Notes under the pieces: generated by a model | Databases searched by the model: none | Told to the model about the DNA's origin: nothing | What the model saw: only the letters and a program-made list of their open reading frames with translations | Made by a program: the position numbers and the translations under genes | Shown: positions 2,687-22,111 of the stretch, piece after piece | How positions within the stretch are numbered: position 1 is the first letter of the stretch | How the letters are laid out: every line of letters begins with the position of its first letter | IMG/VR virus record: IMGVR_UViG_3300031669_000232 | Span: 1 to 24,002 of that record | Direction: 5' to 3' (one strand) | Length of the DNA: 24,002 nt | DNA from: a virus

Positions 2687-4069
2687 TTAAGTCACCGCTA
2701 ACGTCTTAGCGACCACTTCCTTATAAAAAGCAGCACGCTTTTCAGTAACGTTTTTCAGGTTATAATCTTCCTTGAAATCTTCGTATAATTGCTCACCCAA
2801 ACGTTTCCTTAAATCAGCATCTAACACCAACTGTTTCAGGTACTTCTTCCAATATTTGTGTGCGTTTTTCTCCGCACGAATTAACACGCAGTTTTCCATA
2901 TGTCTACCATGCACATTATATGGTGGGATGTCACTGCAAACAATTGGAAGTTTTCTTGTCCAGCATTCAACTTGCTTCAGATTTGACTTCATTCTGTTAA
3001 ACTCGTTGTCAGCAAGTGGTGCAATAACGATATCGGTTTCATCCAGTACATTTGCATACGCATTTGCTTTCTGGGTCCAACGTCTCGCAAAGTTACCTTC
3101 ATTGTCATACTTCACACCTCTTTCGAAGTTCGTAAGCCAATTCATATAATCTTCGTTTTCAATAATCCTGTGATTATCTGTCAGGAGTTTTTCATAATAA
3201 AGATAAACGCTTTCTTCGGATTTAATATCCCTTTGTTTACTATCGAATACCTTCTCTCTATACTTATCTTTTATTTTAGCTGGGAGTGTAGGCATCTTGT
3301 CAACATCACCTCTGGTGTTATTAATTATTTTCACCAATTTCTGATTCCAAAGACCCATTTTCTGAAGTTCGTCTGCAAAATCCTGATTAAATGTAACATC
3401 AGTCGTACTACCTTCAGTATCCCAACCAGCAATAGTTACCTTGAACTTACCCTTGGTATCAGGACTGCTATTAAGAAAGTTTACTACACCTTCCAGTTGT
3501 TCGACATCGACCATGTGAGAACTACCTGCCATATAAGTAATCCTAACCAAATCATCTGGGTCTGGTTTCCATTTATCTTGGAACTGTTTCATCCATGTCG
3601 GGTCAATACTGTTATAAAATACACTAACATTATCCCTGCCAGTAACCTTACGAATTTCATCAGCAAATATATCTGTCGTGGTTGTAACGTAATCAGCAAT
3701 TTTAAGGTTCTCCTTAATTGGAACATCCATTTGCTTCTCTTTGCTCATATTATAAAACGGGTGCTTTGGGTGTAATTTCCAGTAGTCATCAATATCCACA
3801 ATAAGTATTGTACCTGATTTTTTTAGTTCTGCTGCTAAATTCATCATTATCTTGCTGTCTTGAATAAGTTGACGATGATAATGAACAATATGAAATGTTT
3901 TGAGGTAATCGACATATTCTGGTTTTGTAAAGTCGATTTGTGGATTGATTTCCACATAAAAATCATCTGAATGAAATCGTTCAAGTTCCATTGCAGGTGT
4001 CTGAGTTCTGAAATAATTTACCCCCGCACTATCGAGATTGTAAAATAAAATTCTGATTTTGCCGTCCAT
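2687..4069 (-). CDS. GT-B glycosyltransferase (family 4-like)
   Basis: This 460-residue protein looks like a GT-B fold glycosyltransferase. The N-terminal Rossmann half starts 'IRILFYNLDSAGVNYFR' (residues 5-21) and includes 'ILIVDIDDYW' (88-97) and 'ADYVTTTTDIFADEI' (125-139), followed by the interdomain signature 'FYNSIDPTWM' (151-160). The C-terminal half has 'RITYMAGSSHM' (176-186), 'KVTIAGW' (210-216) and the donor-binding stretch 'IVIAPLADNEFNRMKSNLK' (347-365) with E368 and 'LPIVCSDIPPYN' (374-385). Residues about 250-330 form a less typical insertion between C-half strands. No signal peptide. Donor and acceptor cannot be read; virion protein, hydroxymethylated or other modified DNA, or host surface glycan are all possible. 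The weak motif at 4077-4085 may drive it. Confidence 0.88.
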   Translation of the reverse strand: MDGKIRILFYNLDSAGVNYFRTQTPAMELERFHSDDFYVEINPQIDFTKPEYVDYLKTFHIVHYHRQLIQDSKIMMNLAAELKKSGTILIVDIDDYWKLHPKHPFYNMSKEKQMDVPIKENLKIADYVTTTTDIFADEIRKVTGRDNVSVFYNSIDPTWMKQFQDKWKPDPDDLVRITYMAGSSHMVDVEQLEGVVNFLNSSPDTKGKFKVTIAGWDTEGSTTDVTFNQDFADELQKMGLWNQKLVKIINNTRGDVDKMPTLPAKIKDKYREKVFDSKQRDIKSEESVYLYYEKLLTDNHRIIENEDYMNWLTNFERGVKYDNEGNFARRWTQKANAYANVLDETDIVIAPLADNEFNRMKSNLKQVECWTRKLPIVCSDIPPYNVHGRHMENCVLIRAEKNAHKYWKKYLKQLVLDADLRKRLGEQLYEDFKEDYNLKNVTEKRAAFYKEVVAKTLAVT

Positions 4070-4076
4070 AAGTTTT

Positions 4077-4085
4077 TATAAATTT
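4077..4085 (-). promoter_or_regulatory. Degenerate ATTTATA motif before the glycosyltransferase
   Basis: The minus strand reads GAAATTTATAAAAAC, sharing only the ATTTATA core with the exact copies elsewhere. It sits 7 nt before the ATG, closer than the others, so it is the weakest member of the set and may be chance in AT-rich DNA. Confidence 0.25.
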
Positions 4086-4148
4086 CTATAATATAATTAT
4101 CACATATATTACTTATACGGATTTTGGGGGAGAATCTTGAATTTGCAA

Positions 4149-4176
4149 TAAAAAAAGCCAGCAGATTTGCTGGCTT
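4149..4176 (-). terminator. Rho-independent terminator after the 4205-4576 gene
   Basis: On the minus strand a perfect 9-bp stem (AAGCCAGCA with TGCTGGCTT; arms 4168-4176 and 4155-4163) closes a 4-nt loop and runs into a T tract ending near 4149. It closes the enzyme cluster (1706-residue protein to the small basic-tailed protein) ahead of the glycosyltransferase. Confidence 0.88.
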
Positions 4177-4204
4177 AATTACTAAATCATGGAAATTATA
4201 TCAC

Positions 4205-4576
4205 TTACTTGGCACTATCTTTTTCAGTATCAGCGACTTTAGGTCTACCTGCTGATTTTTTCTTAGCAGATACTGTTTTCTTTTCAATGGTAGTTGGTTT
4301 CGGTACAACTACCTTCTTATTAGATGTGTTTGGTACAGGTGCTTTCTTTGGAAGGTCAGCAGGACTGACTTCAACAACAGTTACCAATCCCTTTACTCGA
4401 AGTCTATGAACTGAGAGTGGGAGAGATGTTACTGTAAGAAACACACTATCACCGGGTTTTATTTTCATGGTTTTTTTAACCATATTATCAACGACTGTAA
4501 TATCTAATTCAGAGTTGAATTTAAAATCACGTTTACCTACGAGATTTGTTCTGTTTGTTATTTTATATATGCTCAT
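4205..4576 (-). CDS. Small beta-rich protein with basic Pro/Ala/Lys tail
   Basis: This 123-residue protein has two parts. Residues 1-72 look like a compact beta domain ('YKITNRTNLVGKRDFKFNS', 'KIKPGDSVFLTVTSLPLSVH', 'RLRVKGLVTVVEV'). Residues 73-123 are a low-complexity tail rich in K, P, A, V and T that contains 'KKSAGRPKVAD', whose GRP core surrounded by Lys resembles an AT-hook. It starts 6 nt after the ParB/ART-like gene and is followed by a strong terminator. The tail could bind nucleic acid or anchor the protein to the virion. I do not recognise the family, and the AT-hook reading rests on a 4-residue core. Confidence 0.88.
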   Translation of the reverse strand: MSIYKITNRTNLVGKRDFKFNSELDITVVDNMVKKTMKIKPGDSVFLTVTSLPLSVHRLRVKGLVTVVEVSPADLPKKAPVPNTSNKKVVVPKPTTIEKKTVSAKKKSAGRPKVADTEKDSAK

Positions 4577-5438: not shown

Positions 5439-6010
5439 TATGATTTGAAATTATTAATTTCTTCAAGAATAATACCCAATAACTTGTTGTTGGATTCCAA
5501 TAGACTAATCTTGCCATTATCAACAAAAAACAAATGGTAGTGGATGTCCTGTGGTAAGTCGTCTTGGATTTTGGTATACTCTGCAATTTTGGCTGCGTTC
5601 TTATTCATGAAATCGTCATAAACCAGAATTTCTTTAAGGTCCGGGTTGTATTTCACGATGTTCATAATCACATCACCCTTGGATTCACCACCCCTTTTCA
5701 ATATTATATCATCGACATTAATTTTATTGTTCTTAAGTATTTCCTCGACTTTTGAACGCAACTTTTCCATTCTGGAAGTCAGGATTATCACAGTAGTATC
5801 TGGAATACTCTTTTCTTGCTCCAATTGTTTTTTAATGCTTGGGAATGCTTTGATGTCAAACACTTCGGTATCAAGACTTTCTGGACGACCCCACCATCCA
5901 TCATATGGATAAGGTTGCCCTTTTTTCTGTTCCCATTCCAGCTTTCCACTTTCCTTTTCCGGGGAATCAATCAACGTGCCGTCAAAATCAAATACAGCTA
6001 ATCTTTTCAT
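5438..6010 (-). CDS. HAD phosphatase, Swiss-Army-Knife RNA-repair type
   Basis: I place the start at the ATG at 6010-6008, giving 190 residues, because it forms an ATGA overlap with the stop of the 1706-residue gene and puts the HAD motif I at the N terminus; a frame opening 51 nt earlier adds only atypical sequence. Motif I is 'LAVFDFDGTLIDSP' (D8, D10), motif II 'VIILTSR' (T78), motif III K111 and motif IV 'ILVYDD' (D132, D133). Between I and II, 'GWWGRPESL' (38-46) resembles the GGWWHxPxxL block of the HAD domain found in fungal and phage 'Swiss Army Knife' RNA-repair proteins. The likely reaction is removal of a phosphate from an RNA end or small phosphoester. Coupling to a protein with nucleotidyltransferase and 2H domains strongly supports an RNA-repair job. 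Confidence 0.9.
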   Translation of the reverse strand: MKRLAVFDFDGTLIDSPEKESGKLEWEQKKGQPYPYDGWWGRPESLDTEVFDIKAFPSIKKQLEQEKSIPDTTVIILTSRMEKLRSKVEEILKNNKINVDDIILKRGGESKGDVIMNIVKYNPDLKEILVYDDFMNKNAAKIAEYTKIQDDLPQDIHYHLFFVDNGKISLLESNNKLLGIILEEINNFKS

Positions 6011-9000
6011 TCTTCGCTTACTTTTCCAGTTAATTCCAAAGGAAATCCAAGTGGTTTCCATTCAGTTAATTTATTTGACATGAATGGTTTTCCACCATCG
6101 GCTCTATTAACAGCCAATGTGATATGTGCTTTGGCATTCGTTGAATGATATCCTTCAACACCCACAGCCATTACCTTGTCATCCATTCCATAATCCACAA
6201 CATTTAATATGATTTCAGTATTACCTGACATATCTTCTTTTTCCTTAGTGCCAATATCAAGCGGTCCCATCTTAATTGTCATGTGATGTGCAATGACTTC
6301 CCAGCCTTCTGGAATCATTGGGGTAAATACCTTGAGCAACTTGGCTCTTGACATGTCATCAAGAACAACTGCACTATAACTTACCCTTTTCACATTATCT
6401 TCTTTAAGTAAATCTCTATCGGTTAACGTCCAATACAATTCCTTTTTCAATCTTTCATCTGTTGAAAAATCTTCGTAGTTGTTCTGAAGAAATTCCAATA
6501 CAGATTCTTTCGATGGGTCTGGATATCCGAGTGTTCCACCTTGGGTGTTCCAGACATCGTATTCCTTCATAAAAAATTCTACATCAACCATTTCACCATT
6601 AACATCCCAAACAGGATTTTCGTAGTTGTCCCAACCTTCTTTAATGTCAGTAGGACTTTGTTGTACCAAAGATAGTAATTCTTCCTTATTATTTCTAATT
6701 TTGTCGTCATATACTTTCACCAGCATTTGTTTCAATGCATCACCAATCTGCTTTCCCTGTAATCCAAGTCCCATTAAATCATTGCCGTTAACAGCGAGTT
6801 CCCCAAGTGTTTTTGGGTATTTACCACCGAGTAATTCTTGTGCTGCGACAGTAATTGCTTCAGGAAGAATCTCACTTTGAAGCATATCTTTTGAAGTCAC
6901 ATACACATTATGTGCTGCTGTTCTCGTTTTCATAACATCAAATTCGTTGGCAGCATCATATGCGTGTTGAAGTGCCTTTATTTGTTTTTCGGTCACCAAA
7001 TCACCCTTCAGGTTGTTTTTCACGAACCCAACAGGGTCTCGTAATAAACGTGTTAACAAGAACAGGTATTCACCCATTGTCTTCACACCTTCGAAATCAC
7101 TGCGGTCAATGGTTGATGTTTTCAAGTCATAACCGAAAATCTGCTTAAACAAACCTGTGTTCTGTAACAATTGCGCACCAATTCGTTTATTGCCTTTCTT
7201 AACAATTTTATCTAATTCGATTAAGATTCTCTCAGCAGGAATTTCCTTGATTTTTTGTGCATTGGTCTTAATCATTTCCATTGTTGTTGGTTCAATTACG
7301 AACCCGAAACGACTTGCGAACTGCACAGCACGTAACATTCTCAATGGGTCATCGCTAAACGCCACTGGATTAACAATTCTGATTATCTTGTTCTTAAGGT
7401 CTTCCTGACCACCATATGGGTCAACAATATTACCTTCACTATCTTTACCAATAGCATTGATGGTAAAGTCTCTGCGCTCCAAATCTTTTTCAATTGGTAA
7501 TTCATGGTCAGAGGTAACATCAAAATCTTTGTGCCCACCACCACCAGTTGCTCTTTCGGTTCTGGGAATCGCAATATCAATTTCTTCAGTACTACCTTTA
7601 GGCACGAACTTAATAACACCAAAACTTGCACCAACAGTATTGACCTTTCCATATTTAGAAAGTAGTTGTTCAAGTTCATCCATAGGAATGCCAGTGATAA
7701 GAATATCAAGGTCTTTACTTTCCTTACCCAGAAACTCATCACGCACGGCTCCCCCAACACTATAAATCTTTCCACCGAGACTCTCGATTTCCGATTTAAA
7801 TGGTAGGTCACCCAATTGCATTATGTCGCCTTCTATCATCAATTTACTATAATCTGTTTTTTTTGTCTTTCCGTATGTCGGTAAAAATTCGTTAACAAAA
7901 TCAATTTTGGGATTCCTACGTTGTGCAGCATCCATGAATTTCTGATAAACAGGTGCTGCTTCTGCATGTGTGGGGTAACCCTCGAAACCCCAATCAGGTC
8001 TTAATTCATCAGGATACATTGCCTGATTACTTTCCCCAAGCAATATTTTATTAGTGTCATCTAATCTCGTTACTGTCACATAATCTGTTGGTAACGTATC
8101 ATCCAGAGATGACATATAATCTTTATGAAGTAGTCTGCGACTATTTAAAACATCAATAATTATTTTATGAATATGGTGGCTTCTCTGCTCAACGAAAAAA
8201 TTACCTGCTTTATCAATAACACCCCTAACATTTTTTCCTATATTATCAAGTGTCTGTGGATTCTCTATGATTTGCCAATCAATTTTGGGGTCGTTATAAA
8301 TAACTACATTTTCTTCACTACTCTTTTTTTTTCTGTATTCGTCCTCAAAGTTATCAAATTCCGGTTTAACACCAAACTTCTCAGCATATTTATCTCCAAC
8401 ACCTTCCTCAATATCTTCTTCAGTCAAAGCACTAAACTCTAAGTTATTGATATCACCTTGATTACAGGCATCTGAAGTACCATCGGCTTTACCACCAAGA
8501 CGACATCTTTTTTTAACGGTCACGGCTTGTGAACCGGGAACCCATGCTTTCTTACGGTCTTCTGTCATTTCAAATTCATCATCAGTAGCATCACCAACCA
8601 CATGATTATATTCAAGGTCTTCATCCAGACCATCACCACCATACATTGCTGAATTGGCATCCAGATTATTTTGATTCATAGGAGAACTATCCTCACCATT
8701 ATTATATGCCGGGAAACCATCTTGTCCCAAGTCGCTATCAGTACTGAATTTAGAACTACCGTCTTCATCAACATTAACATCAATTTTTTCAGCATCCGTT
8801 GGTTGCAGAAATCCATTACCAAATCCAACATCAAAGAGACCAATCGCACCGCTTTTCTTGTAGCCAAGATTATATGGATTATAATATTCAATTACGGACT
8901 CCACACCGTATTTTTCAAGTTCTTCGGCAATCCTTAATATGCTGAAAAAGAATTCAGCATCTTCGCTGTTCTTTTTAAAATAACGGTCAACATCATCCTT

Positions 9001-11127
9001 ATTAACGTCATGGTCAAATTGATAACCATAAAGATAGGCTTCAAGAGCTTCTTTATAATCGATATCAAAGAAAGTCTTGAAAGCGTATTCAAGTCTGTCA
9101 TACATACGTTTGAAATAAGCAGCATCTGTTTTCAATTTTTCCAGAATAATTGCATACGTTTTAGGGAAATCGGGGTTTGTCTTAGACTCTACCTTATATA
9201 CTTTGTATGGTTGTGCGATATATTTTAATGGTTTTCCTATGAGTTCAAGATTCTCTGCTGCCTCACTATTGTCACTGGTTATTTTCAAGACCTTATTATC
9301 ACCAATATCATATGCCACACCAAACAATCCATGTCCGAGATAATGTGGTTCAACACCAAGTTTTTTTCCGATTTGAATAGCAACTGCATCAGCACGTTCT
9401 CTGGGATAGTCTTCGTTAATTTGACCTTCAGTAACGTTCTCCGGTAACGTTATTACGTTTTTACCAACATTGGGTTCTGGTTCAAAGTGACCTCCAACAT
9501 CAAAGAATTTTAACGCACCATTACTATACCCAAGATTTGAATTCGAAATATAATCAGTTGACTTGATTCCTAAATCAATTAATTCTTGTCTGATATTCGT
9601 TATTCCAACAATAAGGTCATGTGCTGCTTTTCTATCGGCTTGTGACACATTCGCTTCGGGGTTTTCAGTTAACAAGGTCTTGGCAAATTCAATGCTTTTA
9701 TTATAATCGAATCTATCTTTTTTTCTGATGCCAGATAAAAAATCTTGATAACTATATTCAGGAAATATTTTATTGATATCTGCTTCCATTTTTATAAACT
9801 TATCAAGTGGTTTGTTGATAATGTTTTCTTGAAGAATGGCGAACACCGATTTATTCTTTTCAGTATCAACTACCTTGTAAATATTATATATGTCAGCAAG
9901 ATATTTAGCTCCGTTTCTCAGTACGATAAATGCTGCATCGGCTTCACCCAAATCAGTAGTTAGTTTCAACACAACCCTATTGTTTACTTCAAACGCAACA
10001 CCATTTCCACCATACCCCAGATAACCAACACCACCCAAATCTAATTTAGCAGCAACTCCTTGTGCTAATTCAATCGCATATGATTTATCATCCAATGTAT
10101 CATAATCAACTGGTGGTATTGGAGCGTCTTCATTAATAACATATTCCTCTTTCATCAGAGGGTCTCTATCATAATATCCTTGCTCAATAAGATATTGTTG
10201 GAGTTCAAGAAGATTGTTGAAAAACTGTTTTTTGTTGTCAACACTATTTAACGTTTCTTTAAGGTTGTTAACACATTCGTGGAAACAATCACTTAAGAAT
10301 GGTAATGAACTAACTGGCTTTTTAGGGTACTTACGTTTTTTTGATACGAAATCAACGAACCGTTCATTGATAACACCCGGTCCATCACTGACACTATAGG
10401 GCATGAGACCCCACATACCATGTCTTTCATTAGCACCTACGTTTCCGATGTCAGAAAGTATGTCATCATTCCCATCTTGGAAACCATATAGCTCATACAT
10501 CTGATGTCTTTGTTTTCTCTGTGGACTGTAATGGGTATTAAAGACTTCATCATTCAAGCCGTAATCCGTTAATACAATTGTTGGTTGACCATCACGGAGA
10601 ACCTCACCATATGTGCTGGGTCTTCCCATATCACCGGGAGTCTGACCGTAATTAACAACAAAAGTAATTAAATCGCTTGCAAACTCATTTTCCCAAAAAA
10701 ATTCCTCAACTTCTTTGTCCTGACCAAACATTTTTCTCCCACCTTTATTTTGGTCAACAGTATTTCTTAGGAAATAATATAAATCATTAAGACTTGGAAT
10801 TCCTGTAAGTTCTTTGATTCTTTTTTCATTAACCATTTTAGCCTGTTCTGAAACCAACCAACTATTATCATCGGCACTATCAAAAATTTCAGTAACAACA
10901 TGCAGTGTATCTGCATAATAACCAACACCAGCTTCTGCTTCGTTCTGTGCAATACCTTTGGCATTTTTCGCTAACTTAAAAACCTTTTCACCATCAATAT
11001 CATATACAACTCTACCACTCCCACTACCAATTCTTTGTAGATGTTCGTTGGCGAAATCCATTCTTCCCTTAAATGAACGAATTTGATTGAATCCTTCTAA
11101 GAATTTTGGAAAGTCTTCGTATTTCAT
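6007..11127 (-). CDS. Giant multi-enzyme protein: 3 kinase-like repeats + CCA-adding-type nucleotidyltransferase + 2H phosphoesterase
   Basis: 1706 residues. Three protein-kinase-like modules: (1) about 30-250, loop 'GSGSGRVVY' (34-42), Lys near 51, 'LTDYGL' (186-191); (2) 350-548, loop 'GYGGNGVAF' (371-379), K388, D525 with N531, and 'FFDVG' (D543); (3) 578-768, 'GHGLFGVAY', K615, N753, 'LFDVG' (D766), with Glu where module 2 has catalytic Asp. Residues 775-860 are an acidic linker. A segment with 'CRLGG' and 'CNQGDIN' (875-894) and a domain with 'RGVIDKAGNFFVE' (968-980) are unassigned. The class II nucleotidyltransferase head spans about 1105-1335: 'GGAVRDEFLG' (1125-1134), D1139-x-D1141, 'RRDFTINAI', 'DPYGG', 'DPLRMLRAVQFA'. 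The C terminus (1582-1700) is a 2H phosphoesterase with H1615-M-T1617 and H1668-I-T1670. It ends in an ATGA overlap with the HAD gene. Probable RNA end repair. Confidence 0.95.
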   Translation of the reverse strand: MKYEDFPKFLEGFNQIRSFKGRMDFANEHLQRIGSGSGRVVYDIDGEKVFKLAKNAKGIAQNEAEAGVGYYADTLHVVTEIFDSADDNSWLVSEQAKMVNEKRIKELTGIPSLNDLYYFLRNTVDQNKGGRKMFGQDKEVEEFFWENEFASDLITFVVNYGQTPGDMGRPSTYGEVLRDGQPTIVLTDYGLNDEVFNTHYSPQRKQRHQMYELYGFQDGNDDILSDIGNVGANERHGMWGLMPYSVSDGPGVINERFVDFVSKKRKYPKKPVSSLPFLSDCFHECVNNLKETLNSVDNKKQFFNNLLELQQYLIEQGYYDRDPLMKEEYVINEDAPIPPVDYDTLDDKSYAIELAQGVAAKLDLGGVGYLGYGGNGVAFEVNNRVVLKLTTDLGEADAAFIVLRNGAKYLADIYNIYKVVDTEKNKSVFAILQENIINKPLDKFIKMEADINKIFPEYSYQDFLSGIRKKDRFDYNKSIEFAKTLLTENPEANVSQADRKAAHDLIVGITNIRQELIDLGIKSTDYISNSNLGYSNGALKFFDVGGHFEPEPNVGKNVITLPENVTEGQINEDYPRERADAVAIQIGKKLGVEPHYLGHGLFGVAYDIGDNKVLKITSDNSEAAENLELIGKPLKYIAQPYKVYKVESKTNPDFPKTYAIILEKLKTDAAYFKRMYDRLEYAFKTFFDIDYKEALEAYLYGYQFDHDVNKDDVDRYFKKNSEDAEFFFSILRIAEELEKYGVESVIEYYNPYNLGYKKSGAIGLFDVGFGNGFLQPTDAEKIDVNVDEDGSSKFSTDSDLGQDGFPAYNNGEDSSPMNQNNLDANSAMYGGDGLDEDLEYNHVVGDATDDEFEMTEDRKKAWVPGSQAVTVKKRCRLGGKADGTSDACNQGDINNLEFSALTEEDIEEGVGDKYAEKFGVKPEFDNFEDEYRKKKSSEENVVIYNDPKIDWQIIENPQTLDNIGKNVRGVIDKAGNFFVEQRSHHIHKIIIDVLNSRRLLHKDYMSSLDDTLPTDYVTVTRLDDTNKILLGESNQAMYPDELRPDWGFEGYPTHAEAAPVYQKFMDAAQRRNPKIDFVNEFLPTYGKTKKTDYSKLMIEGDIMQLGDLPFKSEIESLGGKIYSVGGAVRDEFLGKESKDLDILITGIPMDELEQLLSKYGKVNTVGASFGVIKFVPKGSTEEIDIAIPRTERATGGGGHKDFDVTSDHELPIEKDLERRDFTINAIGKDSEGNIVDPYGGQEDLKNKIIRIVNPVAFSDDPLRMLRAVQFASRFGFVIEPTTMEMIKTNAQKIKEIPAERILIELDKIVKKGNKRIGAQLLQNTGLFKQIFGYDLKTSTIDRSDFEGVKTMGEYLFLLTRLLRDPVGFVKNNLKGDLVTEKQIKALQHAYDAANEFDVMKTRTAAHNVYVTSKDMLQSEILPEAITVAAQELLGGKYPKTLGELAVNGNDLMGLGLQGKQIGDALKQMLVKVYDDKIRNNKEELLSLVQQSPTDIKEGWDNYENPVWDVNGEMVDVEFFMKEYDVWNTQGGTLGYPDPSKESVLEFLQNNYEDFSTDERLKKELYWTLTDRDLLKEDNVKRVSYSAVVLDDMSRAKLLKVFTPMIPEGWEVIAHHMTIKMGPLDIGTKEKEDMSGNTEIILNVVDYGMDDKVMAVGVEGYHSTNAKAHITLAVNRADGGKPFMSNKLTEWKPLGFPLELTGKVSEE

Positions 11128-18273: not shown

Positions 18274-19152
18274 TTAATTTAATTCAGGTACTTCACATTC
18301 TTCAATACACTCCGCTTTTCCCTGAAGGTCAATACTATCCGTTTCAATCCTATCAAATTCAATTGTCAATTGGTGTGGTTCCGGTACACATTTCACACTT
18401 TCCCATGCATCAACTTCGTTCCCCTTTTCATCAATTATTTTATAACCTTCTCCACTTAATTTACGAATTCGTTTCTTCGTTAACTCTTTTTTATATATTT
18501 CAGGAAACTCCCTATAATAATAATCACTTGCAATTATTGTTCTGCAAGGCGTGCATTCACAACATGGTTCGTATTTCACGAGTTCTGCGTCTTCAGACCC
18601 AATAATTCTGGCATTTTCACAACTAAATATCAACTCAAAATATTCATCTGGTAACACTTTCGCCATATCATGCTTTCTTTCCTTGAAAAGCGGAAATGTC
18701 AAAGGTATTAATTTCTCCGACATTAATTGATAGGTTTTATAAATCTTCTGAATATCTTGAAGATATGCAATAGCGTCATCATTTCCAACATATCCAATTT
18801 GTATTTCATCAACTTCAAGACCCTGACAATATAATACACCAAGAATCCAAATCGGTACTTGTTTAAAATATAGACTTTCTTCATGGGCACAAACATCTAC
18901 AGTCAACACGAATTCAATATCCTTTAAGGGACATTCAGAATATGGTTTATCGGTATTAAACTGCTTGGCGAATTTCTTATGTAACAAACTAATTCGATTC
19001 TTTTCCAAAACAGTTTTTACCTTATTATTACCAATCTCAATATATATTGGCACAACAGTGTTACCATCACTGAGATTCTTCCAGACCAAATAAGTGGAAT
19101 CCAGTCCACCCGAAAACAAAACACCAACCCTTTTATTCTTTAGTTTTCCCAT
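18274..19152 (-). CDS. queC: QueC-like PP-loop enzyme (7-cyano-7-deazaguanine synthase type)
   Basis: This 292-residue protein begins with an N-type ATP pyrophosphatase loop, 'VGVLFSGGLDSTYL' (9-22). Near the C-terminal half it has the cysteine set of QueC: C178 in 'IFSCENARI' and 'CCECTPCR' (C197, C200, C203 with C-x2-C-x2-C spacing), the zinc site of the bacterial enzyme. QueC converts 7-carboxy-7-deazaguanine to preQ0 with ATP and ammonia; phages use this pathway to make 7-deazaguanines in DNA or tRNA. Residues 40-110 are not a close match to cellular QueC, so another adenylating PP-loop enzyme is possible. It has about 60 extra C-terminal residues. It overlaps the helicase gene by 20 nt and ends 4 nt before the polymerase, so it belongs to the replication unit, which favours a DNA-modification role. 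Confidence 0.88.
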   Translation of the reverse strand: MGKLKNKRVGVLFSGGLDSTYLVWKNLSDGNTVVPIYIEIGNNKVKTVLEKNRISLLHKKFAKQFNTDKPYSECPLKDIEFVLTVDVCAHEESLYFKQVPIWILGVLYCQGLEVDEIQIGYVGNDDAIAYLQDIQKIYKTYQLMSEKLIPLTFPLFKERKHDMAKVLPDEYFELIFSCENARIIGSEDAELVKYEPCCECTPCRTIIASDYYYREFPEIYKKELTKKRIRKLSGEGYKIIDEKGNEVDAWESVKCVPEPHQLTIEFDRIETDSIDLQGKAECIEECEVPELN

Positions 19153-22111
19153 GCTTTTCTTTTATTTTGTTAACAACCTCACTAAACACAGATTCCGCAA
19201 CAACAGACTCATAATCTTCGTTATCCATTACTTTCACGATTTCTTTTCGCTTGCCTTCGATTGCCGAAAACACATAATCATCAATGGTGTCTCTGAACAC
19301 CAGTGGATAGATATTCACAGCAGCTTTCTGTCCGATTCTATGTAGTCTATCAGCCACTTGGTCATATTCACCTACCGAATATGGAAGTGTGATGATAAAC
19401 AATTTACTTGCAGCAGTAAGAGTCAAGCCATAATTACTGGTTTGAATTGTGCCAAGGAAAACCTTCAGGTCACTATCCGGGTCTTGAAATCTTTTTATTA
19501 TCCCGGCACGTACTTCCAAGTCTTTTTCGTCACCAGTGTGTAATTCAGCAACATCTCCCAGAGCCTCTTTCAATTCATAAAGACTTTCCTTGTAATAGTC
19601 AACAATAACAACCTTTTCCCCGGTTTCCAAAATATTTTCAATTAATTCAAGTAAAGGCTTGACCTTTAGATGTGCCGTATATTGTCTCAGGCGAATCATT
19701 ATTGTCAGGTGATTACCTGAAGGACGTTCAACGAACTCATTTGCCACATTGTTTTCAATATCATCATAAGTGCTGTATTCTGCATCATCCATTTCCATCA
19801 TGACCTTCTGATATGTTTTATCAGGTAGGTCTTTAAGCGCATCAATTTTTCGTTTTCTGTGAGTATATGGTGCTGTTTTATGGAACAGTTCTTCAAGTCG
19901 CTGTTCTGCACTGTTTGTCCTATATCCCCACCCACTCTCATGGTCATAATCCATACCACAATAATATTTTTGGAAATATGTTTTCGTTGCGAAGTCCAGA
20001 GGCGATACCTGATTTAATACAGTATATAATTCATGTGCCCGGTTTGGTGCGGGAGTTCCTGATAAGAAAATCTTACTGATTTTATCAGCTTTAAATATAT
20101 TCTTATTGAACGTCCTCTTGAAATTCTTATATGTATTGGACTTGGTGTTTTTAAGTTTTTGACAATTACTCACCAATATACCGTTCGCAAAAAAATTATG
20201 ATTATTTGCAATTTCTAAATCATATGTTTTTTTATTTTGGCAACCACCATTTCCAAATTTTCGTCTATCTCCCAATTCCAAAACCTCAACACTTTCCACC
20301 CCAATAATTTCAAGATTTCTGTCTTTCTCTTGTCCAGAAATTTCCATTTCTTTGTTTTGTGTGTTTTCCCATCTACCTCTATTGCCAATTTTATGCTCAG
20401 TATCCCTATATCCACTTTGTAATGTGTTGGTGGTGAAATTATGTTTGCATTCATTTCTTTGAGCGGTAATAACACAGGAATTGCTAATTCCATTTTCATT
20501 TGAGTTATTCCCGATAATTCCGTGAATAATTTTATTTGTTGCGTTGTTAATTGTCCATTTCCACCTCTTGAAAGAAAAGTATATTTCCCTCTTTTCTTCT
20601 TCATTTTCTCTACGTTCATTTGTTTGAACATTGGATTGTTCGATTTCATACGTTCTGATAACCGGGTTTTCAATTCCGGTTTGTTTTTGTAACTCTTTAT
20701 TAACGCCTCCGAAATTTTTTTCCCAGCTTCCTTGGAATATATCTTCTCCCTTATTTCCGTTTTCGACATCCTCCATTTCGCAGAGCAATTCGTTGAGCAG
20801 AACCTTTGTGTTTTTCTTTCCTGAACAGAGAATTCTTTTTTGCAATATTGACAATTCCTCGTCACAATCGGTGATATGTTCCCATTCAATCTTCTTGTTT
20901 CGACTGCTTTTAATACTGTTTCTTTTGATGTAAAAATTGCTGAACACTTTTTCGAACATAGTTTTTGTGAACTTCTTTTTTGCTTGAATTTCATCCCACA
21001 TTGTAGACATATCAAAATCTTCGTTGGTATTTTCTTTCTTCTCGTATTTATATAGTCTTTCCCCATAATTAAAATCTTTAATTGGTATATATTTGTCTCT
21101 ATCAACAGAATAAAATTTATGCTCTGGCGTACATACAATGATTTCACCATTTAATAATTTTACTTTAATAACATCATTATTACCTCTATATAAATACCTA
21201 TTAATTGCATTATATTCAATTTTCTTTAGCTTATGATTATAGGATAGTACCTTAACATCAAGTTTATTTTCAATAATATCACCAATTTTAAGCTCACCGA
21301 TATTTGTTTGGATTAACGTATCATAAGGAAAACATTCATCACATATTATGGAATCGATTCTACCAATATCGAGCTTCTGCCACTTAGGGTCGAACCTCTT
21401 ACTTTTTATATTTGGATTAAAGAAATCGTAATTAACAATAACGTATTTCGCATCTTCGATGGTACAGGTGTTTCTACGCCAATTTACAATATATGCATTA
21501 CTATTTGTAAATTTTTTTACTTCCTCATAAAAATTGAACTTCAGGGAATTTGGTGTGATAACCACAACCTTTTCGAAACCATTCATTTCGACAAACAAGA
21601 TGGCACTCAGGGTTTTACCCAATCCCATTTCATGAGAAATTAAGGTGCTTCTCGTGACATTCATGAACATCGAAGCCACGATTTGATGTGGATACAGCTT
21701 TACATCACCATCCAGAAGTGCATGCAGTTTATCGCTGTATTGCTCGTAATTCTTTTCCAATTCATTCTTGAACCGGACCCAATTTTCTTTCTTGACATTG
21801 AGTTCTGCAATAAATTTGCGCTTCTCGGCTTCAGCAAGTTCAATTTTTTTGATTTGTTGTACGAATATCTTTCTGCTTTCATCAGACCCGAAATCAAATC
21901 GGATTTTATTGCTGCCCCGGTATCGTCTAATTAAAATGAGTAGTGAGGATGCATGAATTTCCCACGCCCTTTCCAATACCCTCCATTTTCTGGTCTCTTC
22001 AGGAAGTTCTTTTATTCTCTGGATTAACTGGTCGTTAATTGGAAATCTTACATGGTAGGTTAGTGTTCTACGAATCCTTTCACAACTAACTATGAATATT
22101 GGTTCACCCAT
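19133..22111 (-). CDS. SNF2/SMARCAL1-like helicase precursor with in-frame intein
   Basis: This is a 992-residue precursor; removing the intein (260-649) leaves 602 residues. Extein motifs are those of SF2/SNF2 ATPases: Q-type 'LYPHQIVASMFM' (139-150), motif I 'SHEMGLGKTLSA' (159-170), motif II 'IICDE' (255-259) joined after splicing to 'CQKLKN' (650-655) giving DECQKLKN, motif III 'FLSGTPAPN' (682-690), 'KVVIVDYY' (833-840), motif V 'TSNYGLTLTAASKLFII' (891-907) and motif VI 'DQVADRLHRIGQ' (917-928). The first 90 residues resemble the HARP-type region of annealing helicases. The probable role is fork remodelling or recombination-dependent replication, like T4 UvsW. It is the first gene after the Bacteroidetes-type promoter and overlaps the QueC-like gene by 20 nt. 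Confidence 0.95.
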   Translation of the reverse strand: MGEPIFIVSCERIRRTLTYHVRFPINDQLIQRIKELPEETRKWRVLERAWEIHASSLLILIRRYRGSNKIRFDFGSDESRKIFVQQIKKIELAEAEKRKFIAELNVKKENWVRFKNELEKNYEQYSDKLHALLDGDVKLYPHQIVASMFMNVTRSTLISHEMGLGKTLSAILFVEMNGFEKVVVITPNSLKFNFYEEVKKFTNSNAYIVNWRRNTCTIEDAKYVIVNYDFFNPNIKSKRFDPKWQKLDIGRIDSIICDECFPYDTLIQTNIGELKIGDIIENKLDVKVLSYNHKLKKIEYNAINRYLYRGNNDVIKVKLLNGEIIVCTPEHKFYSVDRDKYIPIKDFNYGERLYKYEKKENTNEDFDMSTMWDEIQAKKKFTKTMFEKVFSNFYIKRNSIKSSRNKKIEWEHITDCDEELSILQKRILCSGKKNTKVLLNELLCEMEDVENGNKGEDIFQGSWEKNFGGVNKELQKQTGIENPVIRTYEIEQSNVQTNERRENEEEKREIYFSFKRWKWTINNATNKIIHGIIGNNSNENGISNSCVITAQRNECKHNFTTNTLQSGYRDTEHKIGNRGRWENTQNKEMEISGQEKDRNLEIIGVESVEVLELGDRRKFGNGGCQNKKTYDLEIANNHNFFANGILVSNCQKLKNTKSNTYKNFKRTFNKNIFKADKISKIFLSGTPAPNRAHELYTVLNQVSPLDFATKTYFQKYYCGMDYDHESGWGYRTNSAEQRLEELFHKTAPYTHRKRKIDALKDLPDKTYQKVMMEMDDAEYSTYDDIENNVANEFVERPSGNHLTIMIRLRQYTAHLKVKPLLELIENILETGEKVVIVDYYKESLYELKEALGDVAELHTGDEKDLEVRAGIIKRFQDPDSDLKVFLGTIQTSNYGLTLTAASKLFIITLPYSVGEYDQVADRLHRIGQKAAVNIYPLVFRDTIDDYVFSAIEGKRKEIVKVMDNEDYESVVAESVFSEVVNKIKEKHGKTKE
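20165..21334 (-). mobile_element. Intein in the DEAH-type box of the helicase
   Basis: The intein is residues 260-649 of the precursor (390 residues). It starts with Cys at 'CFPYDTLIQTNIGELKIGD' (block A), has block B 'IIVCTPEHKFYS' with T328 and H331, and ends with block F/G 'TYDLEIANNHNFFANGILVSN', terminal N649, followed by Cys as the first C-extein residue. The penultimate residue is Ser, where His is usual. Splicing regions are about 260-357 and 600-649. The 242 residues between are polar and low-complexity in this frame and show no LAGLIDADG or HNH endonuclease; the same DNA encodes a different endonuclease in the +1 frame. The insertion splits catalytic motif II between DE and C, so splicing is required for activity. 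Confidence 0.95.
20215..21066 (-). CDS. Homing endonuclease nested out of frame inside the intein (zinc-finger + Vsr/DUF559-like nuclease)
   Basis: The frame is open from an ATG at 21150, but I prefer the ATG at 21066 (283 residues), which leaves the intein block B region single-coded and starts just before the first finger. In numbering from 21150: two Cys4 fingers, C48-x2-C51 with C65-x3-C69, and C100-x2-C103 with C118-x3-C122; a NUMOD3-like segment with 'SNNPMF' (170-175); and a C-terminal PD-(D/E)XK nuclease, 'YKVDIGILSIKLAIEVDG' (244-261) with D247, E258, D260, H264 and D273, then 'LGWKVLRFWNWEI' (283-295). This matches the Vsr-like class of phage homing endonucleases. It reads +1 relative to the intein frame on the same strand. 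Expression would need internal initiation; the leader is A/T-rich with no Shine-Dalgarno. It probably cleaves intein-less helicase alleles. Confidence 0.88.
   Translation of the reverse strand: MGKDYINTRRKKIPTKILICLQCGMKFKQKRSSQKLCSKKCSAIFTSKETVLKAVETRRLNGNISPIVTRNCQYCKKEFSVQERKTQRFCSTNCSAKWRMSKTEIREKIYSKEAGKKISEALIKSYKNKPELKTRLSERMKSNNPMFKQMNVEKMKKKRGKYTFLSRGGNGQLTTQQIKLFTELSGITQMKMELAIPVLLPLKEMNANIISPPTHYKVDIGILSIKLAIEVDGKTHKTKKWKFLDKRKTEILKLLGWKVLRFWNWEIDENLEMVVAKIKKHMI

Follow-up and report, generated by a model that had tools for sequence, protein, structure and literature searches.

Can one segment of DNA carry conserved parts of two unrelated proteins in two reading frames, and if so, what sort of element would be organized in this way? 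The question is raised by a helicase gene in the 24,002-nt stretch of viral DNA analyzed here, which we call the window. The initial annotation had proposed that the C-terminal region of an intein and the core of a nuclease are read there from the same bases. The open reading frames, together with profile matches to inteins and to DUF559, bear this out. Very probably, we conclude, the element is a mobile intein served by a homing endonuclease that is encoded as a separate gene, overprinted in the +1 frame, and not as a fused domain.

Helicase, intein and nuclease in one segment

The features of the locus are collected in Table 1. The splicing motifs are all present in the window (Cys1, TPEH in block B, Asn390 and the +1 Cys), and by these motifs and its modeled Hint fold the element is classed as an intein, with protein splicing presumed. 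It differs from a split intein, whose halves lie on separate ORFs, in that a single ORF reads through it. It differs from canonical inteins in that there is no endonuclease domain fused in frame; both in the window and in every nested locus described below, the nuclease occupies the +1 frame. Intein motifs are found, which sets it apart from insertions of the ShiLan type, in which a splicing domain is undetectable. The nuclease frame matches DUF559 in a profile search (5.2e-14), with the CxxC modules standing N-terminal of the DUF559/Vsr-like part. Its fold, the conserved E, D, H and D residues and the GWxVLRF motif place it in the EDxHD/Vsr-like (DUF559) group, in agreement with the Vsr-like assignment made initially.

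Table 1. Features of the helicase locus, in window coordinates.
Feature	Position	Strand	Evidence
SNF2-type helicase gene, exteins plus intein, one 992-aa ORF	22111-19133	minus	SNF2-rel_dom 9.8e-20, Helicase_C 8e-8
Intein, 390 aa, between Walker B Asp-Glu and +1 Cys	21334-20165	minus	intein_Nterm (TIGR01445) 4.8e-12, intein_Cterm (TIGR01443) 2.6e-7; Cys1, TxxH, terminal Asn
Hint splicing domain, N-terminal half, residues 1-100	21334-21035	minus	pLDDT ~90-96; mini-intein match Z 21
Nuclease ORF, 283 aa, +1 frame, ATG at 21066 (frame open from 21150), wholly inside intein	21066-20215	minus	DUF559, EDxHD/Vsr fold
Intein-frame filler, residues 103-336, open, mostly predicted disordered	21028-20327	minus	mostly pLDDT <50, no excess conservation
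Nuclease frame: CxxC modules, putatively zinc-finger-like	21009-20785	minus	conserved Cys pairs
Nuclease frame: catalytic-site stretch E230-x-D232...H236...D245	20379-20332	minus	invariant columns
Intein frame: Hint strand LEIIGVESVEVL, residues 341-352	20314-20279	minus	strand, pLDDT ~93; aligns with 7cfv VESIEKL
Doubly constrained core: nuclease GWKVLRFW on intein GVESVEVL	20301-20278	minus	conservation, codon choice, third-position divergence, model
Intein blocks F and G (TYDLEI...NHNF...VSN)	20227-20165	minus	intein_Cterm profile, conservation, model

The nuclease and intein overlap for 852 of the 1,170 nt of the intein. The nuclease stop codon is at 20217-20215 and the intein ends 50 nt beyond it, exactly as first annotated, with the first 13 nt of the blocks F and G segment also encoding the C-terminus and stop of the nuclease. 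At the motif, the intein frame reads LEIIGVESVEVLELG (20314-20270) and the nuclease frame reads ILKLLGWKVLRFWNWEI (20316-20266). Nuclease codon positions 1, 2 and 3 fall on intein positions 2, 3 and 1, respectively, so the placement of nuclease position 2 on the intein wobble position was correctly described at the outset.

The openness of the intein frame is far beyond chance, since it contains no stops where resampling the nuclease protein with its own codon usage predicts about 28; the third frame contains 31. A locus on another contig (L001) with a 71%-identical nuclease has both frames open in the same arrangement, which rules out a sequencing error. An ordinary intein with an in-frame endonuclease, split into two frames by sequencing frameshifts, is likewise rejected by the roughly 90 loci, several of them in deposited phage genomes.

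Structure models were built from alignments from which phage-record sequences had been left out. The AlphaFold model of the intein is a Hint domain, confident at residues 1-100, 341-352 and 370-390, with most of residues 103-336 at pLDDT <50, and it matches the splicing domain of the Mtu RecA mini-intein with Z 21.4 over 137 residues. Within it, the segment described initially as a lead-in to block F is modeled as a genuine Hint strand, and in a sequence alignment its VESVEVL pairs with VESIEKL of the Spirulina DnaX mini-intein (7cfv). With another mini-intein, L114, as the phmmer query, the strand was not clearly aligned. In the nuclease model (pLDDT 89.6), residues 258-263, KVLRFW, form a strand, and the fold matches 3hrl (Z 12.5), I-Bth0305I (Z 11.3) and Vsr (Z 10.5). 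As the strand predictions for the two proteins coincide, some 17 common bases (20295-20279) would encode beta-strands of two unrelated folds.

Elsewhere in the window, the ORF adjoining the helicase gene (18274-19152, minus strand) starts with a GGLDSTYLVWK motif, which we take to resemble that of QueC/ExsB-type enzymes; it has no Pfam match at 1e-4. A 1,706-aa ORF (6007-11127, minus strand) has a tRNA nucleotidyltransferase-type poly(A) polymerase head with RNA-binding domains at residues ~1121-1331, and repeated unassigned segments ahead of these domains.

Constraint on the shared bases

Shifting the reading of the nuclease core G-W-K-V-L-R-F-W back by one base yields G-V-E-S-V-E-V-L; the nuclease strand KVLRFW lies at 20295-20278. 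Two motifs can share bases in this way because the third positions of the nuclease are the first positions of the intein. R-V-x-S-V-E-V of the intein and G-W-x-V-L-R-F of the nuclease are accommodated together by GGG for Gly, TTR for Leu and AGR for Arg, codons that suit both.

Comparison of 88 non-redundant loci, together with tests of codon choice, finds both frames constrained at the motif. Along G345 to L352, the excess intein-frame conservation has z values of 20, 3.6, 1.3, 5.7, 38, 36, 8.6 and 4.5, where z comes from resampling synonymous nuclease codons under a no-stop rule and takes no account of the relatedness of the loci. Most other columns are below about 4, and the same resampling found no excess at RGGNG and EVDG, two nuclease motifs that are just as invariant. 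At the core, the nested nucleases encode Gly as GGG in 71 of 88 cases, Leu as TTR in 72 of 79 and Arg as AGR in 68 of 86, compared with 28, 42 and 40 expected from the usage of the same nucleases. This extends to high-GC nested genes, in which TTR and AGR are disfavored (17/17 TTR and 17/20 AGR at the core). No such bias was seen at GWxVLRF in a control set of 47 non-redundant free-standing DUF559 genes, where the shifted reading is mostly [RG][LM][DA]x[APS][AS]xLE. Nuclease third-position divergence is also lower in the core (0.30 vs 0.47).

Two loci place the intein strand elsewhere. In L110 (~4150-4300) and L112 (~3990-4150), it is encoded over the nuclease tail instead, some 30 codons downstream (RVTSV... 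and EVIAVERV..., respectively), and their GW sites, RVDRAAVLE and GLDRTPVLE, resemble those of the free-standing genes. Over the set, distances between splicing halves and between nucleases are significantly, if only moderately, correlated (Mantel r 0.30, permutation maximum 0.13), a signal of co-inheritance. The double constraint had been proposed to cover 110 nt; it does not hold throughout but is concentrated at 20302-20270 and at the lead into block F (~20238-20224), separated by a linker that varies over most of its length. The alternative posed along with it, that the intein-frame segment is filler, fits intein residues ~103-336 and much of the linker before TYDLEI, and fails at the motif.

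That the nuclease alone is constrained, with the intein motif arising as a side effect of the resemblance that GW-x-V-x-R-F, shifted back by one base, automatically bears to [RGW][VLM][ED]x...xLE, is a proposal we consider quite improbable. It is partly true, in that intein motif positions i0-i2 and i7-i8 are dictated by the nuclease motif regardless of any requirement of the intein, and some AT-rich free-standing genes (L167 and L174) read WLESIEILE by chance. It is rejected for the unforced residues, which carry signal of their own: i4 is V or I in 75 of 90 nested loci versus 7 of 47 free-standing genes, and i5 is E in 61 of 90 versus 4 of 47. The departure of codon choice from each nuclease's own usage, the lack of excess conservation at its other invariant motifs, and the placement of the segment in the Hint fold by both the model and the PDB alignment also speak against it.

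It is similarly hard to credit that programmed frameshifting makes the nuclease part of the intein, and hence a fused domain after all. The nuclease frame is indeed open upstream of its ATG, from 21150, and no clear Shine-Dalgarno sequence was found at the nuclease start in the window. Against this, a strong and properly spaced Shine-Dalgarno sequence is 12 times commoner at nested nuclease starts (15/63) than in background windows (20/1,025), and reaching block F would take a second shift, back into the intein frame. Still more remote is an intron-borne endonuclease removed by RNA splicing, for which there is the precedent of Vsr-like nucleases in phage group I introns (PMC11878797; I-Bth0305I, PMC3943268). 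A group I or II intron is rejected by the absence, at E up to 1, of any match between the gene and the intron families of Rfam, by the N- and C-terminal intein motifs and Hint fold, and by the host frame, which is preserved across the element in about 90 loci although an intron would have no need of this.

Distribution, alleles and a homing model

The +1 arrangement of an intein and overprinted nuclease recurs at 108 loci in phage and bacterial contigs (90 non-redundant at <80% identity), gathered by scans of viral and genome contigs, and the relative frame is identical in all of them. Over the 90 loci, codon resampling predicts 1,281 intein-frame stops and none occur, partly by construction since loci were selected in part for having that frame open. 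Only three other candidate loci have stops in that frame, one or two each (L044, L085 and L104), and L104, which also has no intein C-terminal end, looks degenerate. Where the host gene was tested, it encodes an SNF2/DEAD-type helicase or a clamp-loader subunit. Among 83 loci with both ends placed, Cys1 and a +1 Cys or Ser are present in every one, and the insertion is after the D-E of Walker B, or up to 4 residues further on, in 79, two of the 83 site assignments (L013 and L049) probably being pattern-matching errors. A subgroup with a fixed distance of 54 residues from GW to the intein end (L048-L051, L056, L058, L060, L061, L064, L072, L074, L076, L078, L106 and L109) appears to be borne by clamp-loader genes, with Pfam run on L051 and L074. 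Homologous nucleases are also found in the +1 frame of uninterrupted helicase coding sequences in Vibrio, Pseudomonas and Corynebacterium phages. Nested matches in phage records carry only annotations such as helicase, coil-containing or hypothetical protein, and the arrangement is both common and easily overlooked under such annotations.

At a single site, Vibrio phages variously have the full element, a mini-intein or an empty allele, the pattern expected from homing. The helicase coding sequences of phages K389 (L182) and K458 (L184) have mini-inteins of ~150 aa with no nuclease, at the same Walker B site where related Vibrio phages have the full element; L185 is empty, reading DE-CHH, and L183 reads DEAHH. 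From these presence and absence alleles, the nuclease is probably a homing endonuclease. In a spirochaete contig (L121, 3471-5536), a helicase gene, apparently without an intein, has a free-standing relative of the nuclease immediately upstream, which runs slightly into the helicase open frame. This is possibly an ancestral or adjacent-target state.

The frames, the homology, the double constraint at the core, the distribution and the allele states are all seen in the sequences themselves. We infer the following sequence of splicing, internal initiation, cleavage and homing for the overprinted element. The helicase frame would give one precursor, from which the Hint domain, interrupted by ~235 mostly disordered residues, would excise itself and so restore DE-C of Walker B. 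An internal start on the same mRNA would give a stand-alone EDxHD/Vsr-like nuclease with zinc-finger-like modules; one mRNA likely has two products, the spliced helicase and a separately initiated nuclease. The nuclease would cut intein-less alleles at Walker B, and the element would be copied in. The nuclease ORF extends beyond the usual endonuclease insertion point and takes on the coding of the Hint strand that precedes block F.

Selfish intein endonucleases are expected to decay after the intein is fixed. Whether these loci are a widespread and old class of overprinted mobile inteins, with nuclease and splicing domain locked together by bases that encode a beta-strand in both proteins, is to us an evenly balanced call. 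If they are, the intein could not drop the nuclease reading there without rebuilding its own strand, and the lock would be the reason for the long persistence of an otherwise disposable endonuclease. Overprinting would thereby offer a testable reason for persistence, by linking the nuclease to a splicing-essential piece. Given the predicted strands, it would also be a clear example from nature in which two unrelated folds draw core beta-strands from one DNA segment.

Relation to known systems

Dassa et al. reportedly described, in 2009, fractured genes with split inteins, in which a Vsr-like endonuclease lies between the two intein gene halves. There too, a Vsr-like nuclease is tied to an intein in phage-type genes; the difference is that the intein is in two genes there and in one continuous ORF with an overprinted nuclease here. 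The catalytic fold and conserved residues are shared with I-Bth0305I (PDB 3r3p) and DUF559 (PDB 3hrl). However, I-Bth0305I is intron-encoded and the DUF559 control genes are free-standing; neither overlaps an intein, and the free-standing set is without the codon bias at GWxVLRF.

Ordinary inteins carry their endonuclease at one highly conserved site (PMC6801210). Canonical endonuclease inteins of the PI-PfuI and PI-SceI type (PMC6801210) resemble the present element in having a Hint domain, entry near the usual endonuclease site and insertion in a conserved host motif. Their endonuclease is an in-frame domain, whereas here it is a separate +1 ORF that also extends over the next Hint strand and into the beginning of block F. 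The ShiLan domain, described in 2025, brought out-of-frame endonucleases to light in phage insertions that lack splicing domains (PMC11855218). Both it and the Pacc40 insertion, an out-of-frame HNH in a phage methylase (PMC11855218), likewise hide an endonuclease in another frame while the host frame stays open. They differ in being HNH enzymes with no splicing domain, whereas the present loci combine a recognizable intein with a Vsr-like nuclease under common constraint at both cores. A 2025 preprint about non-canonical inteins of actinobacteriophages (10.1101/2025.01.02.630785) is cited in the same paper, also for overlapping frames, and may already cover overlapping inteins.
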